This document shows, in pieces, positions 10,128-18,500 of a stretch of 64,000 nucleotides of DNA. The stretch is from contig NZ_KI911784.1 in the NCBI RefSeq assembly GCF_000516515.1, positions 2,264,881 to 2,328,880 on the forward strand, read 5' to 3'. Each line of letters opens with the position of its first letter. Position 1 is the first letter of the stretch. Under the pieces are notes generated by a model. It was not told where the DNA came from and searched no databases. It worked only from the letters and a program-made list of their open reading frames with translations. The position numbers were made by a program, and so were the translations under genes. The stretch is from Chloroflexus sp. Y-396-1. Lineage in GTDB: Bacteria > Chloroflexota > Chloroflexia > Chloroflexales > Chloroflexaceae.

Positions 10128-10272
10128 AGACAACCGCTGCTCGTGATAAGGTAGCTGATGTTCTTTTCCATCTGATATTACCACGAGTGTACGAAAGCAG
10201 CAGGAGATGCCTGCGCGGAGGTCTGAAACCAGCGATGTTCAACGTTGCCGGACATCCGTCACCTGGGAGACT

Positions 10273-12576
10273 GGAAGCGCGGGCCGCTGGCCCGCATTGT
10301 GTGGTGTGCAGGTGGAACCCATCGGTTGGTGCATCAGCACACCATAGTGGGGGCGGGTTTCAAACCCGCCCCCACCGTGCGGTGACGGGCATGATCGGTG
10401 CAACAACAGGGGGTGAACGTGTGCACATTTCTCCTGAGAGCGCGGGCATCTTGCCCTCGCAGACACGACGAGGGCGGGACGCCCTCACTCGTAGGCGCTT
10501 GGGAGCGCGGGCCGCTGGCCCGCATTGTGTGGTGTGCAGGTGGAACCCATCGGTTGGTGCATCAGCACACCATAGTGGGGGCGGGTTTCAAACCCGCCCC
10601 CACCGTGCGGTAACGGGCATGATCGGTGCAACAACAGGGGGTGAACGTGTGCACATTTCTCCTGAGAGCGCGGGCATCTTGCCCTCGCAGACACGACGAG
10701 GGCGGGACGCCCTCACTCGTAGGCGCTTGGGAGCGCGGGCCGCTGGCCCGCATTGTGTGGTGTGCAGGTGGAACCCATCGGTTGGTGCATCAGCACACCA
10801 TAGTGGGGGCGGGTTTCAAACCCGCCCCCACCGTGCGGTGACGGGCATGATCGGTGCAACAACAGGGGGTGAACGTGTGCACATTTCTCCTGAGAGTTCG
10901 GGCATCTTGCCCTCGCAGACACGACGAGGGCGGGACGCCCTCACTCGTAGGCGCTTGGAAGCGCGGGCCGCTGGCCCCGCATTGTGTGGTGTGCAGGTGA
11001 AACCCATCGGTTGGTGCATCAGCACACCATAGTGGGGGCGGGTTTCAAACCCGCCCCCACCGTGCGGTGACGGGCATGATCGGTGCAACAACAGGGGGTG
11101 AACGTGTGCACATTTCTCCTGAGAGCGCGGGCATCTTGCCCTCGCAGACACGACGAGGGCGGGACGCCCTCACTCGTAGGCGCTTGGGAGCGCGGGCCGC
11201 TGGCCCGCATTGTGTGGTGTGCAGGTGGAACCCATCGGTTGGTGCATCAGCACACCATAGTGGGGGCGGGTTTCAAACCCGCCCCCACCGTGCGGTAACG
11301 GGCATGATCGGTGCAACAACAGGGGGTGAACGTGTGCACATTTCTCCTGAGAGCGCGGGCATCTTGCCCTCGCAGACACGACGAGGGCGGGACGCCCTCA
11401 CTCGTAGGCGCTTGGGAGCGCGGGCCGCTGGCCCGCATTGTGTGGTGTGCAGGTGGAACCCATCGGTTGGTGCATCAGCACACCATAGTGGGGGCGGGTT
11501 TCAAACCCGCCCCCACCGTGCGGTGACGGGCATGATCGGTGCGACAACAGGGGGTGAACGTGTGCACATTTCTCCTGGGAGCGCGGGCATCTTGCCCTCG
11601 CAGACACGACGAGGGCGGGACGCCCTCACTCGTAGGCGCTTGGGAGCGCGGGCCGCTGGCCCGCATTGTGTGGTGTGCAGGTGGAACCCATCGGTTGGTG
11701 CATCAGCACACCATAGTGGGGGCGGGTTTCAAACCCGCCCCCACCGTGCGGTGACGGGCATGATCGGTGCAACAACAGGGGGTGAACGTGTGCACATTTC
11801 TCCTGAGAGTGCGGGCATCTTGCCCTCGCAGACACGACGAGGGCGGGACGCCCTCACTCGTAGGCGCTTGGGAGCGCGGGCCGCTGGCCCGCATTGTGTG
11901 GTGTGCAGGTGGAACCCATCGGTTGGTGCATCAGCATACCATAGTGGGGGCGGGTTTCAAACCCGCCCCCACCGTGCGGTGACGGGCATGATCGGTGCAA
12001 CAACAGGGGGTGAACGTGTGCACATTTCTCCTGAGAGTGCGGGCATCTTGCCCTCGCAGACACGACGAGGGCGGGACGCCCTCACTCGTAGGCGCTTGGG
12101 AGCGCGGGCCGCTGGCCCGCATTGTGTGGTGTGCAGGTGGAACCCATCGGTTGGTGCATCAGCACACCATAGTGGGGGCGGGTTTCAAACCCGCCCCCAC
12201 CGTGCGGTGACGGGCATGATCGGTGCGACAACAGGGGGTGAACGTGTGCACATTTCTCCTGGGAGCGCGGGCATCTTGCCCTCGCAGACACGACGAGGGC
12301 GGGACGCCCTCACTCGTAGGCGCTTGGGAGCGCGGGCCGCTGGCCCGCATTGTGTGGTGCGCAGGTGGAACCCATCGGTTGGTGCATCAGCATACCATAG
12401 TGGGGGCGGGTTTCAAACCCGCCCCCACCGTGCGGTGACGGGCATGATCGGTGCAACAACAGGGGGTGAACGTGTGCACATTTCTCCTGAGAGTTCGGGC
12501 ATCTTGCCCTCGCAGACACGACGAGGGCGGGACGCCCTCACTCGTAGGCGCTTGGGAGCGCGGGCCAGAGGCCCGC
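10273..12576. repeat. Tandem array of ten 228-bp hairpin-rich units
   Basis: Ten head-to-tail units start at 10273, 10501, 10729, 10957, 11186, 11414, 11642, 11870, 12098 and 12326; a broken eleventh (12554-12576) keeps only the first palindrome. Every unit is 228 bp except the fourth (229, one extra C). Each unit holds three inverted repeats: GCGGGCC-N3-GGCCCGC; a 29-bp palindrome with 14-bp arms (GTGGGGGCGGGTTT / AAACCCGCCCCCAC) around one base; and GAGGGCG-N3-CGCCCTC. Units differ by only a few substitutions. Because 228 is a multiple of three, several frames stay open (for example plus 11067-12653); these are artefacts and I do not call genes here. It sits between prmC and spoVR. Confidence 0.97.
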
Positions 12577-12859
12577 ATATAAATGCGAAGATACCATTGG
12601 TATGCGGTGTCAGGTTAAGGCGTTGCCGTGTCTGTGCTGCAGAACGCGCCTAGCATCCCTTATCATTTCCATACCGGGCGAGGAATTGGGAGTTTGTGCC
12701 TCTCACTCTTCTCACCACCTGCACTTATTATCGGCTGCGAAAGCTCAGGCTTCCGCAGCCTAATGAGGAAGTGGATAGGATCAATCGTAAACCATACTAG
12801 CACGTGCCGAGAGGCAAGAGAATGCACTGTAGTTTCTCAGACACTGCTCTGCTCAAATG
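12577..12859. other. Spacer between tandem array and spoVR stop
   Basis: Nothing recognisable apart from a short open frame (plus 12628-12882) without a supported start or family. The inverted segment GCTGCGAAAGC..GCTTCCGCAGC near 12735-12762 could act as a weak hairpin past spoVR, but it lacks a T run. Confidence 0.4.
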
Positions 12860-15181
12860 CTAATCTATGCGTCGCTCACTAAAATCGCGACCGTCAAACG
12901 ATAGTAAGCGTCGCTTCTCTTCAATGACCGTTTCCAGATGGACAGGCCGCGTCCAAATTTTATACAGGTTGCGCATCGTCTCACGGGCATAGTCCATCTT
13001 AAGGTCAACGCCTTCGTGGCGATGTCGTAAGTAGAGTTCACCGCGGTTGCCGTAGTTACCATCTTCGACGAAGATGACTGGCTGGCCGAAATTGGTGAGC
13101 CGGAAGAGCAATTTCTCTTTGACCTCTTTGAACTCACGCGAAGCAATCTCGTAGAGATCGGTATCGCGATTGTAGCGGAAGGTAAAGAGTTTCTGCTCCA
13201 TCACGAATTCTGGGGTGAGGAATTCGTCGATAAATGTCACGTCGTTGTACAGCCGGCGCACCTCGAAAATCTTCTGACGACCGAGACCGAGCTGTTTATC
13301 CCACGAGCGTTTGAGAGCGATGTCATCACACTCTTCGTATTCTTTGCCAAATTTACCCTTATTCCAGCGATCTTCAATATCACGCAGGAGTTCTAGCCCC
13401 AGTTTGTAGGGGTTAAGCCGACCGCCGCTAGTTGCGACGACACCTGAATGGAGATCGGCAAACGAGATGATTTCGGCAGCCGAAGCGACGCGCTGGGTCA
13501 TAATGGTACTATGCCAGTAACTGTTGTGGTTAATGAAGCCCTGAGCCGCGTAGCGATGCGTTTCGGTGACCGAAATATCGTACACATCGGCACGACCGTG
13601 TTCAATGGCAACAATCTCGTCCGTCCAGGTAACAGGGGGCGACGGTGTGGTGTAGGCACGTTCAAGAGCCGTAGGATCATCGATCTGCAACGTTGTCTCG
13701 ATCCGACGCGCCAGAACACCCAGGTTTGCCAACAGCAGTTGCACCGTCTGAGCAAGTTCGATACTGGCGCAGTGAATGGTTAGACCTTGCGAAGTACTGA
13801 CAGCGCTGGTGAAGAAGGCGCGCAGAAATGCGACGACCTGTGGTCGTGGTGAGCGGCGGATGGCGTCTAGCGCATGATGATCGGGATGAATCACACAGCG
13901 CTGGCCGATAGCCGTCGCCATAGCCTCATCAACAACATCTGTCGGAGCACAGTGATAACGATGGCGGCGCAACGGTAACGATGGACTGGTAGTAGCACCA
14001 ACGGTTGCCAGCACCTGCGGCAATGGCATGCGACGCCGCAATCGTGCCGGCTGCGTGGCCCATAGCTCTGTACCACCGGCAATACATACCCGATCACCAA
14101 CGCGAAGGGCATCGAGCCGACGCCACTCGCCAGAAGCCAGCATAATACGGTGATTGAACGATCCGGTCAGCGTAAAACCGGCACGGGTATGAATGGTTAC
14201 GGTCGGATAAGCGGTGAAACAATTCCAATCGTACACCGTCTGTTGCCGCTCGCTATCGCTTACCTGTGACCGATAACGGCGCGAGACCAGCTCACGCAAC
14301 GGGATAATGCCACGGTCGGTCGGAATCAGACTATCACCGTGGAGGCATGCCCACCCCTCGTTCAGAATTTTGGTCATGCCCTGTGGGGCGAAGTAATAGG
14401 CTTCATCGCGAATGATTTCGAGTACCGTATGCTGCCAGTTTTCGAGGGGGGCAAAATTCATCAAAAAGAGCAGGACATCACGTTGTGGATTCTCTGGAAA
14501 GCGACGCTGACGGGCACGCTCCTCCTCGAGTTTTCGGCGCTGGGCTTCAAGAAACTCTGGTGGATTGATGTAATCGCGCATGTACTCACGTTCGACCGGC
14601 AAGCCCTCGACGACCGGTGGCTCTTCGTCGTTCACGATAGGGCGCGGTGTTACCGCCTCAGGGCGCCGAATATACGGAGCGTGGTAGTCGATCAGGTTTT
14701 CCAGTGACAGACAGGTGTCGATGAAATCTTCCACCTGATCGTAGCCGATCCGGTCAATAATGCGCTGAATACGGGCGGCGTGGTTTGCCATCGTGTCGAG
14801 CATCTTGCGATTGGTGTGGGCAAACCACATATTGTTCTTAAAGAAATCGACGTGACCGGTGACGTGCGCCATCACCATCTTCTGCGTCACATCTTCGTTA
14901 CCCTCGAGTAGGTAAGCGTAAGCCGGGTTATTGTTGATCACCATCTCATAGATGGTACTCCCCGTCCAGACATGACCCTTGAGCAACTGATCGTACTCCA
15001 TACCGAATCGCCAATGGGGATAGCGCGTTGGGAAGCCGCCGAACGCCGCTACCTCATACAGGGTTCGGTAATCGAGCACTTCGTAGATAATGGGGAAGAA
15101 ATCAAGGCCATACTCACGGGCAATCTGCTCGATCTCCTGTCGCGCTTGTTCGAGATGAGCGGGAAGGCGGGTACTTTTCAT
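12860..15181 (-). CDS. spoVR: SpoVR family protein containing an intein
   Basis: SpoVR/YcgB-family protein, last gene of the prkA - DUF444 - spoVR module. This module is conserved widely and linked to stress, stationary phase or sporulation; its biochemistry is poorly known. From ATG 15181 (a GTG lies two codons upstream) the ORF has 773 residues. A 275-residue intein (Cys279-Asn553) splits the highly conserved segment NEGWA / SYWHS, and removing it leaves about 498 residues, the usual SpoVR length. N-terminal landmarks are [14 protein letters not shown] and [13 protein letters not shown]; after the intein come [10 protein letters not shown] and [15 protein letters not shown]. The stop is TAG at 12860. 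Only after splicing would the conserved core be rebuilt. Confidence 0.94.
13523..14347 (-). other. Intein in SpoVR with a degenerate LAGLIDADG endonuclease
   Basis: In-frame insertion of 825 bp. It begins with Cys ([10 protein letters not shown], block A) directly after Ala and ends with GFINHN followed by Ser, i.e. penultimate His, terminal Asn and a Ser +1 nucleophile, all needed for canonical protein splicing. Block B is recognisable around TGSFNHRIM and block F at [16 protein letters not shown]. Between them, [32 protein letters not shown] aligns by eye with a LAGLIDADG homing-endonuclease repeat, but the motif's acidic residues (usually FDADGS) are replaced, and only one such repeat is apparent. 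So splicing is probably active while homing is probably lost. Confidence 0.92.
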
Positions 15182-15207
15182 ACGCACACCAAATCGGGCT
15201 AGGGCGA

Positions 15208-16323
15208 TCAGCGGCCTTTGCCGAGGAAGGCGCGGATCGCATCGTAAATATCGTCACGATCGGCAATTTCGGCGATCACAATGCGGTCATCGCCGCGCAG
15301 GTATTCTTCAAGGTCATGGGCAAAACGCCCAGAGCCGTAGAGCGAACGGACCTGGCCGTAACAGAAGAGATTCACTTTAGGCAAGAGTTCACGCTTGAGC
15401 AGTTCCACACATTCACGTGTATCACCACCGCCCCAATTATCGCCATCGGAAAAGTGGAACGCATAAATATTCCATTCAGTCGCAGGATAGCGCTCGTCAA
15501 TCAGGCGATTGCAAAGTTTGTAGGCCGATGATATTTTCGTACCGCCACCTTCACGAATATGGTAGAAGGTCTGTTGATCAACCTCTTTGGCAGCAGCGTC
15601 ATGAACGATATAGCGAATTTCGATTGACTTATACTGTGAGCGCAGCCAGGTCTCGATCCAAAAGGCGGTCATCCGCACCAGCTCTTTTTGTTCGGTACCC
15701 ATTGAACCCGACACGTCCATCATGTAAATAATGACGGCGTTACTTTCGGGCATAAGGGTTTCTTTCCACGAACGATACCGCATATCATCAGGGATCGGAA
15801 TTACGACCGGATTGTTAATGTCATACTCACCAGAAGCAATCTGGCGGCGAAGTGCTTCGCGGTACGTTCGCTTGAAGTGACGGAGCGAATTTGGGCCGGT
15901 ACGTCGGATACCGCTATACTTGTCCTTCTCGCTAATCAGATTTTTCTTGCCCTTAGGCTGAATGTTGGGCAGTTGCAACTCTTCACCCAGGATTTGGGCC
16001 AGTTCCTCAATCGAGACATCAACTTCCAGAATGTGTTGACCAGGTTCAGCACCCGCCTGACCGGCGCCGGGTTGACCATCGCCCTGTGCTATCGGATCAC
16101 CGATGTTGCCATCACCTTGCCCAACACCACCAGCCTGTTTAGCACCATAGCGAAACTGAGGTATATCGATCTGCGGCATTGGGATACTGACAAAGCGCTT
16201 ACCCTGCCGTCCGATCAATTCACCTTGTGACATATATTTGCGCAGGTCTTTTTTGATCCGCCCGCGTACAATTTCACGGAAGCGGCTGAGATCGCGTTCA
16301 GCACGTTTCATTGACATCGCCAT
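15208..16323 (-). CDS. yhbH: DUF444 family protein (YhbH/YeaH), VWA-like
   Basis: Middle gene of the prkA - yhbH - spoVR module. From ATG 16323 (codons [12 protein letters not shown]) the protein has 371 residues; the frame extends to a TTG at 16401 without family support. The N-terminal half is basic and contains a Gly/Gln-rich linker ([16 protein letters not shown]). The C-terminal half has a von Willebrand A-like MIDAS, DVSGSMG, and later [12 protein letters not shown]. It is reported in other bacteria to work with the PrkA kinase; its exact activity is unknown. It ends 26 bp before the spoVR start and begins about 92 bp after prkA. Confidence 0.92.
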
Positions 16324-16415
16324 AGGAGCACCAATCCTGGTAGCGGAGGAGGGCGACACAGCGCCCTCCTCGATGCCGGTTGTCGGTTGAATGTTGAACA
16401 AGCTACTGCTGAGGC

Positions 16416-18500
16416 TTAGCGACGTGTATCACCACGGGCAAAGATCGAAGCCACGTAGTTGAGTACATCAGTCGCCGATTGCTCGTTGTAGCCGAAGTCA
16501 CGGATCAGGCGGGCCTTCACCACGTCAATCTTTTCCTGGGTATCACGGTCGATCACGCGCGAAACGAGCGATGTGAGCTTGATGCTATCTTTCTGATCTT
16601 CAAAGAGCTTCAGCTCAAGCGCCTTGTGGAGCCGCTCGTTCGTGCGGTAATCGAAGGTCTTTCCTTCGATCGCGAGGGCGCCGATGTAGTTCATAATCTC
16701 GCGGCGGAAGTCATCTTTACGCGACTCCGGAATATCGATCTTCTCCTCGATACTGCGCATGAGACGCTCATCAGGCTCTTCGTACTGGCCGGTATAGCGG
16801 TTGCGCACCTTCTCGCGCTGGGTGTAGGCCTTAATGTTATCGATGTAGTTTGCGCATAGGCGCTTGATCGCCTCTTCATCGGCTGAGATCGCCCGCTGGA
16901 CCTCATTTTTCACTATCTCCGTATACTCTTCGCGGACAATCGCTAGCAGGTCACGGTAGCGCTTACGCTGCTCTTCATCGGTAATGAGTGCGTGGTTCTT
17001 CAGCCCGCTCTCTAGCTCGTTGAGCACCATGAAGGGGTTGATGTAGCCTTCTTCCTGATTGCTCACCAGCGCGTTCGATATCTTATCCTGGATGTAGCGC
17101 GGTGAAATACCCTCCATCCCTTCACGTACCGCCTCTTTACGCAGCTCTTTGATGTTGTCTTCGGTAAAGCCGGGTAGAGTCTTCCCGTTGTAGAGCTTGA
17201 GTTTCTGCAAGAGGGTAAGGTTCGGCTTCTTCGGCTCTTCGAGTCGGGTCAGCACTGCCCACATTGCCGCCATTTCGAGCGTATGGGGAGCAATATGGAC
17301 ACGCACCTTCTTCTTGTTGAAGTCGCGCTCGTAGATGCGCACTTCGTCGCGCAGGCGCGTGACATACGGGATGTCGATGCGCACGGTGCGGTCTTTGAGC
17401 GCTTCCATAAACTCGTTGTTTTCCAGACGGCGGTACTCTGGCTCGTTGGTATGGCCGATAATGACCTCATCGATGTCGGTCTGCGCAAACTTCTTCGACT
17501 TGATCCGGTGCTCCTGAGATGCACCAAGCAGATCGTAGAGGAAGGCTACATCAAGCTTGAGCATCTCGACGAACTCGATAATGCCACGGTTGGCGATATT
17601 GAACTCACCGTCGAAGTTGAAGGCACGGGGATCAGAATCGGAACCGTAGATGGCGATCTTACGGTAGTTGATATCACCGGTTAGTTCGGTACTATCCTGG
17701 TTCTTCTCATCCTTGGGCTGGAAGGTACCGATCCCGATGCGATCCTGCTCGCTGAACACCAGCCGGCGTACCCGCACGTGGCTCATCACCTTCATCCAGT
17801 CGCCTTCGTAACGCTGCATGAGTTCGCGGAAGTGGAAGCGACAGACCGGGCAGAGATCACCTTCGATACGAATTTGCCGATCCGGGTCAAGACCTTCATT
17901 GATCCGCTCGATAAAAGTTGTCCGCAATTCACGAGGGATGAGGTGGAGCGGCTCTTCATGCATCGGACACTTTTCCCACTCCGATTCGGGAACTTTGCGC
18001 CAATCAAAGGTATCATGATTCTCGATGATACCTGTGTACCAGTCGTAGGTGTAGAGTGCGCCTTCCTCGGTGCGTGAGTAATGTTCGAGACCGCGCTTGA
18101 GACGGCGGACGATGGTTGACTTCGAGGAACCGACCGGCCCGTGCAGCAGGAGCACCCGTTTCTCAGTACCATACCCACGCGCAGCACCTTTAAAGAAGTT
18201 AACCAGCCGCATGAGCGGAATCTCCAAACCGAAGATCGCGTCGTCGCCATCAAACGATTCGTCGGAAAAGAACTTGTAACGAATCAAGCGCTTTTTGGCG
18301 TCGATGAACTCTTCGGTTCCATACGACATAATCATGTCGTAGACCCGCTGAAACGCATTACGGGCAACTTGCGGTTTGCGGGTGACAATATCAAGATAGT
18401 CAGCGAAGGTACCGCGCCAGTTGAGCTGTTGAAAGCGGCGACGATCCTGCTGCTCGCCGATCATCTTCATCAACTCAAAACCGGATAGAGTCATGTTCAT
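16416..18500 (-). CDS. prkA: PrkA family serine protein kinase / AAA+ protein
   Basis: First gene of the module, 694 residues. An AAA-type PrkA N-terminal domain carries the P-loop GPVGSSKST (121-129). A Cys/His pattern (CPMH .. CPVCRFHF) lies in the middle, where relatives have it. The C-terminal PrkA kinase-like region (about 430-680) follows. E. coli YeaG and B. subtilis PrkA are the reference proteins, with roles in starvation and sporulation signalling. The start ATG at 18500 sits behind GCAGGAGGATGT; a second ATG two codons later is equally placed. The gene is divergent from cvpA with a 300-bp intergenic region that must hold both promoters. Confidence 0.95.

Follow-up and report, generated by a model that had tools for sequence, protein, structure and literature searches.

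Splicing by class 1 inteins begins with an N-S shift at Cys1 and a transesterification to Ser+1, which are followed by Asn cyclisation, aided by the penultimate His, and an O-N shift. Block B of inteins usually has the form TxxH, and a minimal mini-intein is made of the Hint domain only, with about 130-170 aa. The gene for SpoVR is usually accompanied by those for a DUF444 protein and PrkA. In Bacillus subtilis, the absence of SpoVR reduces the heat resistance of spores, and the protein binds RNA in vivo, as reported in PMC12456014. SpoVR, a protein of a stress module, lies outside the replication, recombination and repair proteins which inteins favour as hosts according to PMC10663303.

The window analysed here is a stretch of 64,000 nucleotides from Chloroflexus sp. 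Y-396-1 (RefSeq assembly GCF_000516515.1, contig NZ_KI911784.1), and it contains a spoVR gene with an in-frame insert. The features of the locus, in window coordinates, are the following.

16416..18500, (-) strand: prkA (AAA_PrkA and PrkA C-terminal, Pfam 321.6 and 309.5 bits), first gene of a prkA-DUF444-spoVR run
15208..16401, (-) strand: DUF444 (YeaH-like) gene, upstream neighbour of spoVR (Pfam DUF444, 315.3 bits)
12860..15181, (-) strand: spoVR interrupted in frame by the intein, 773 codons counted from the ATG (Pfam: SpoVR matched in two stretches, 414.7 bits, and SpoVR_C)
14348..15181, (-) strand: N-extein of SpoVR, ending in ...ILNEGWA (NEGWAS in most alleles of the order that have an empty site)
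13523..14347, (-) strand: SpoVR intein, 275 aa, from Cys1 to His274-Asn275 (in-frame reading, profile matches and alignment)
14057..14347, (-) strand: Hint N-half, intein aa 1-97, with blocks A and B (GSFNHR; His66 invariant in 32/32)
13631..14056, (-) strand: remnant of the homing endonuclease, intein aa 98-239 (linker degenerate, block C cut short, acids of block E lost)
13796..13828, (-) strand: decayed LAGLIDADG block, intein aa 174-184 (reading of the block E motif)
13523..13630, (-) strand: Hint C-half, intein aa 240-275 (TIGR01443 above cut-off)
13520..13522, (-) strand: Ser+1 codon AGT, acceptor nucleophile (DNA read at the junction)
12860..13522, (-) strand: C-extein of SpoVR, starting with SYWHS, with stop (ORF translation)

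The open reading frame of 775 aa (12860-15187, minus strand) begins with GTG at 15187 and has ATG as codon 3; counted from this ATG, the joined SpoVR extein has 498 aa, the length that the preliminary description had predicted for the spliced product. The limits which it had given for the intein, 13523-14347 on the minus strand, proved exact to the base. The insertion point within NEGWA/SYWHS and the canonical ends (Cys1, His-Asn and Ser+1) were likewise borne out by the reading of the frame and, for the site, by its identity in relatives. Indeed, Cys stands directly after NEGWA and INHN directly before SYWHS, and the SpoVR profile covers both flanks and halts at the insert. Between spoVR and a gene resembling prmC (judged by eye) lies a tandem array (window 10272-12578; 10.1 copies of a 228-bp unit with 98% matches), and the long ORFs which run across it are likely spurious.

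The insert alone is matched by the Pfam model Intein_splicing (39.6 bits, cut-off 35.8) and by TIGR01443, intein_Cterm (19.7, cut-off 15.6); TIGR01445, intein_Nterm (16.3, cut-off 24.5), and LAGLIDADG_3 (21.5, cut-off 22.5) stay under their thresholds. When the genome, one contig of 4,890,986 bp, is searched in six frames with E up to 1, the spoVR insert is the sole place matched by Intein_splicing or LAGLIDADG_3; the former match (21.5 bits) is below the cut-off and covers only the C-terminal part, and the latter (23.6 bits) is just above it. The match to inteins is not due to chance, because 31 relatives, 30 from the same order (Chloroflexales) and one from an archaeon, carry an insert at the identical site, and the alignment of these with the window intein has 35 invariant columns. 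Cys1, H66, H274 and N275 are invariant in all 32 rows, and block B of this family is mostly SxxH. Ser+1 is kept in 31/31 carriers of the order, in 12/12 sequences from two other families of Chloroflexota, f24 and f43, and in 16/16 halobacterial carriers with complete inteins. Judged by these residues, the SpoVR insert is an intein of the class 1 type: it has the Cys1, the block B His, the end with penultimate His and terminal Asn, and the Ser+1, and its insertion is exact and in frame, with empty alleles. An AlphaFold2 prediction of the intein from an alignment of two rows (the window copy and L003) has a mean pLDDT of 38.6 and was set aside; a Hint fold is suggested by the profile match.

The distribution of this intein is much wider than the window's genus. 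SpoVR is present in 65/82 genomes of the order, and the intein occupies the SpoVR site in 32 of these, the window's included (31 complete inteins and one split over two contigs). The remaining 33 are without intein; the locus was read in 30 of them and also in G055, and two (G001 and G020) were assigned from unbroken SpoVR matches. Junctions at base level and reads of empty sites confirm an exact insertion, with empty alleles in related genera. Inteinless SpoVR alleles, which had been proposed for comparison, thus exist in these genera; within Chloroflexus itself none is found, since SpoVR is matched in 7/8 genomes and all 7 carry the insert (0/7 empty). The eighth genome, 82% complete, has no SpoVR match. 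At one locus (L046, G018:C312), which has a long branch, the SpoVR frame goes wrong downstream of the intein near the contig edge and its C-terminal part sits on another contig, C28 (L047), which indicates an assembly edge or a broken gene.

In the phylum sample, SpoVR occurs in 114/400 genomes. Beyond the order, SpoVR is interrupted at the same point in at least 14 genomes belonging to families f24 and f43 (loci were obtained for 13, with 12 inteins read from end to end, whereas G383 is assigned from its matches); in other members of these families SpoVR is unbroken. Among Halobacteria, SpoVR is present in 306/341 genomes and the SpoVR-site intein in at least 17/341, 16 of which were read through at the site and one at its start only. 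Both counts are lower bounds, as the best 4-5 candidates per genome were scored. A same-site SpoVR intein family, in which many members have an intact endonuclease, therefore spans Chloroflexota and Halobacteria, and it had been overlooked in the preliminary description. A contig scan with the window intein as single query, which reaches close relatives only, found one locus, in a MAG of Halobacteriales. A viral vector was considered and rejected: the three viral-contig matches are distant (24-25% identity), two being in terminase-like frames and none in SpoVR, as judged by eye. A plasmid or phage carrier was discarded as well, the matches being to a single plasmid record (25.8%) and to 13 records of phages (22.7-33.7%). 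The features under these matches are terminase, DNA polymerase, DNA helicase, LAGLIDADG endonuclease or hypothetical proteins, and three phage records are unannotated. Two viral contigs (L103 and L104) have terminase-like frames, again by eye, broken by LAGLIDADG-bearing, intein-like inserts which resemble the SpoVR intein only distantly.

The homing endonuclease of the window intein is decayed, as had been proposed. Block E, which reads FLRALYDCDGY in intact relatives, has lost its acids; block C is truncated before its GDG; and the intein is 125 aa shorter than relatives of 400 aa. The two LAGLIDADG motifs with catalytic acids, which mark a mobile homing intein, are thus lacking in this copy. 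Scored by eye from the motif letters (GYLCGDGH and RALYDCDGY), the 31 complete inteins of the order keep both catalytic Asp in 10 cases, one in 4 and none in 17, and both are kept in 16/16 halobacterial and 11/12 f24/f43 sequences. All 7 Chloroflexus inteins are of one architecture: they are 274-279 aa long, lack both acids and have block C cut off at a common point. This shared structure points to a single loss of the nuclease before the seven species split. In the inteins of about 400 aa, a helix-turn-helix-like stretch is seen by eye in the linker between Hint and LAGLIDADG (L053, aa about 105-165; L003), in bacterial and archaeal copies alike; the LacI family is matched by 2/14 members (best E 1.4e-4). 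Such a stretch might possibly be an extra DNA-recognition module of the nuclease.

Carriage seems to follow the state of the nuclease, with exceptions. It is patchy in four genera with an intact or half-intact nuclease (g11 1/5, g16 3/6, g32 4/6, g25 1/4) and complete in three where the nuclease is dead (g1, the window's genus, 7/7; g4 3/3; g10 2/2). The rule is not clean, because g18 has 2/2 with a half-intact nuclease and g2 has one dead copy, one intact and one empty site. Moreover, complete carriage in three genera may represent only three events, as the states of decay cluster by genus. On a SpoVR tree of 58 rows, from which L045, L046 and L048 (whose exteins are partial, frame-broken or very long) as well as G001, G020, G054 and G055 were left out, presence and absence need 11 changes, and intact versus not-intact nuclease needs 7 among carriers. 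The grouping of decayed inteins on the intein tree has long branches and is probably an artefact; it was not used for counting losses.

Selection on the parts of the gene is uneven. Among the 7 Chloroflexus species (21 pairs), the median dN/dS is lowest in SpoVR itself (0.014) and rises through Hint-C (0.086) and Hint-N (0.142) to the remnant (0.256), values which are rough at a mean dS of 0.97-1.6. The frames of the insert-bearing SpoVR have no stops, and all 7 species retain Cys1, His66, His274, Asn275 and Ser+1. The splicing module and SpoVR are maintained; the remnant is less so, though not neutrally, and may not be functionless because it is still constrained (0.256, not near 1). Outside Chloroflexus, SpoVR has a dN/dS of 0.035-0.112 in three other carrier sets and of 0.017-0.032 in three non-carrier sets (3-6 pairs each); if anything, it is slightly less constrained in these carriers. 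Mosaic inteins are observed in genus g16 (L053, L054 and L055). L053 and L054 differ little at synonymous sites of Hint-N and the nuclease (dS 0.11-0.18), but dS reaches 1.6 in the linker and saturation in the first 33 codons, which suggests that diverged inteins have exchanged blocks by recombination. Diversifying selection on the N-block was discarded; recombination is the better explanation, as saturation there extends to synonymous sites.

The insertion site has features which may be traces of homing. Carriers of the order encode Ser+1 by AGC or AGT in 31/31 cases, whereas the +1 codon of non-carriers is AGC/AGT in 17/30, TCN in 11 and ACG (Thr) in 2 (Fisher p 1.8e-5 for AGY). AGY is used at 29-33% of other SpoVR serines, and the nearby +5 serine has it in 13/31 carriers versus 14/30 non-carriers. 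On independent tree pairs, which are few, the link does not reach significance (median p of 0.25 in a sign test, with a range of 0.0625-0.5), though its sign is never reversed; it is thus suggestive. The codon is AGC in 12/12 f24/f43 carriers and TCC or TCG in 16/16 halobacterial ones, so that no single codon rule holds everywhere. In the 30 best-scoring intein-free halobacterial SpoVR loci (L127-L156), the +1 residue is Ala in 23 and Ser in 7. Ala at this position would block splicing, and it may reflect either an ancestral condition or resistance to the intein. In one case, L055, the 30 bases that follow the site have 1 difference from the carriers L053/L054 and 5-6 from its closest sisters, the intein-free L022 and L030, which is what co-conversion during homing would give; on the upstream side, L055 shows no greater closeness to the carriers.

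Taken together, the insert is probably a splicing-competent, immobile relic of a homing cycle. An intein lineage would have invaded spoVR by homing, at the conserved site NEGWA|S(Y/F)WHS, and its LAGLIDADG nuclease would have been cut down and mutated before the seven examined Chloroflexus species diverged; thereafter, it would have been inherited in this state. On the evidence of sequence comparison, the insert should splice in the cell without an obligatory signal, giving SpoVR of 498 aa with the native motif NEGWASYWHS. It should no longer move, and it would persist since only exact deletion or working splicing spares SpoVR. Against this account stand the N-terminal intein model under its cut-off, the clustering of decay states by genus, the remnant dN/dS of 0.256 (a rough ratio, with dS near or above 1), the exceptions g18 and g2, and the weaker SpoVR constraint in the other carrier genera, seen in few pairs. 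The first of them would suit an insert that is dead for splicing, with SpoVR either working as an uncleaved precursor or inactive, but this is very improbable: the five splicing residues are conserved in all 7 species, the Hint halves evolve more slowly than the remnant in a gene whose SpoVR part has a dN/dS of 0.014, and 275 aa inserted into a strongly conserved motif would hardly be tolerable. The shortened intein might still be mobile through a nuclease acting in trans, as some mobile elements are known to borrow one; the genome has no other LAGLIDADG_3 match with E up to 1, this being the one nuclease family searched, and such mobility appears very improbable.

The preliminary description raised the idea that splicing controls SpoVR activity, and it has accordingly been considered that the relic was domesticated as a switch, splicing only, or faster, under stress or in a certain redox state and so gating SpoVR post-translationally. 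The insert is present in 7/7 SpoVR-matching Chloroflexus genomes despite a dead nuclease, the dN/dS of the remnant is below 1, the host gene belongs to the prkA-DUF444-spoVR run, and conditional splicing is known for other inteins, as described in PMC10663303. Within the remnant, Cys151 and Cys193 are kept in 7/7 species, Cys179 in 6/7 and Cys164 in 5/7. However, 40/142 remnant positions are invariant, so that two conserved cysteines are unremarkable as putative sensor residues, and the window's own species is without Cys164 and Cys179. SpoVR is uninterrupted in 33/65 genomes of the order, and retention without benefit is expected because loss must be exact. A fixed relic that splices constitutively explains the data no less well; control of SpoVR by splicing is so far unsupported, and a switch is unlikely. 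Its particular form, in which the remnant with its conserved cysteines would be a redox or metal sensor gating splicing in Chloroflexus, is unlikely too; if true, the genus would make active SpoVR only when conditions demand.

The relic is one member of a family whose kinship crosses domains. In plain MAFFT alignments with trimmed exteins, full-length inteins of the order and of Halobacteria have a mean identity of 44.8%, as compared to 36.4% for the exteins, whereas within the order the values are 62.6% and 79.6%. The intein is thus faster than its host within the order and yet more alike across domains, which points to a transfer of the SpoVR-site intein between Chloroflexota and haloarchaea. 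Two comparisons tell against a simple reading: within Halobacteria the intein is not faster (67.6% versus 63.6% for the host), and intein and host are equally similar when the order is set against f24/f43 (39.6% and 39.0%). On the intein tree, built by a quick method and with long branches, the order, f24/f43 and Halobacteria form three separate groups.

A first report of the SpoVR intein allele is not claimed. InBase may list a Chloroflexus SpoVR intein, which would be the same allele; such an entry is not known to cover distribution, decay or archaeal kinship. A search of main texts found no paper naming both SpoVR and intein, or intein and "sporulation protein R", and none stating a Chloroflexus SpoVR intein, which the preliminary description had believed to be noted already, a belief that agrees with the sequences. 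The main text of PMC7090010 has no word beginning with SpoV, that of PMC4071816, a survey of 118 halobacterial genomes, does not name SpoVR, and the inteins discussed in passages of PMC6390638 are in GyrB and DnaE. The locus is of value since one site in a non-replication protein displays the homing cycle, with alleles that are empty, intact, half-broken, or broken and complete within a genus. These natural SpoVR alleles make the persistence of dead inteins testable across Chloroflexota and haloarchaea, and the site points to gene transfer between bacteria and archaea. Annotators should be aware that SpoVR in groups of Chloroflexota and haloarchaea can be split by an intein.

Among solved structures, the best matches to the window protein are DnaB-type mini-inteins (PDB 4o1r, with E 5e-5, 6frg, 6frh and 1mi8), which are matched by the Hint N-half; no PDB chain matched the SpoVR part in this search. 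Those chains have 142-169 aa, whereas the SpoVR intein keeps a nuclease remnant of ~140 aa and, at 275 aa with a middle part of 142 aa, is not minimal. The family profile matches chains 7qsu, 7qss and 7qst (V-ATPase), 2cw7 (PI-PkoII) and 1dq3 (endonuclease/intein). With LAGLIDADG-bearing inteins (PF14890 and PF14528), the SpoVR intein shares Cys1, the block B His, the His-Asn end and Ser+1, and both Pfam models are matched by 14/14 full-length relatives scanned; it differs from them in that the window copy is without the acids of both motifs and the host is SpoVR. Halobacterial inteins (PMC4071816) likewise have patchy carriage and kinship with bacterial inteins.
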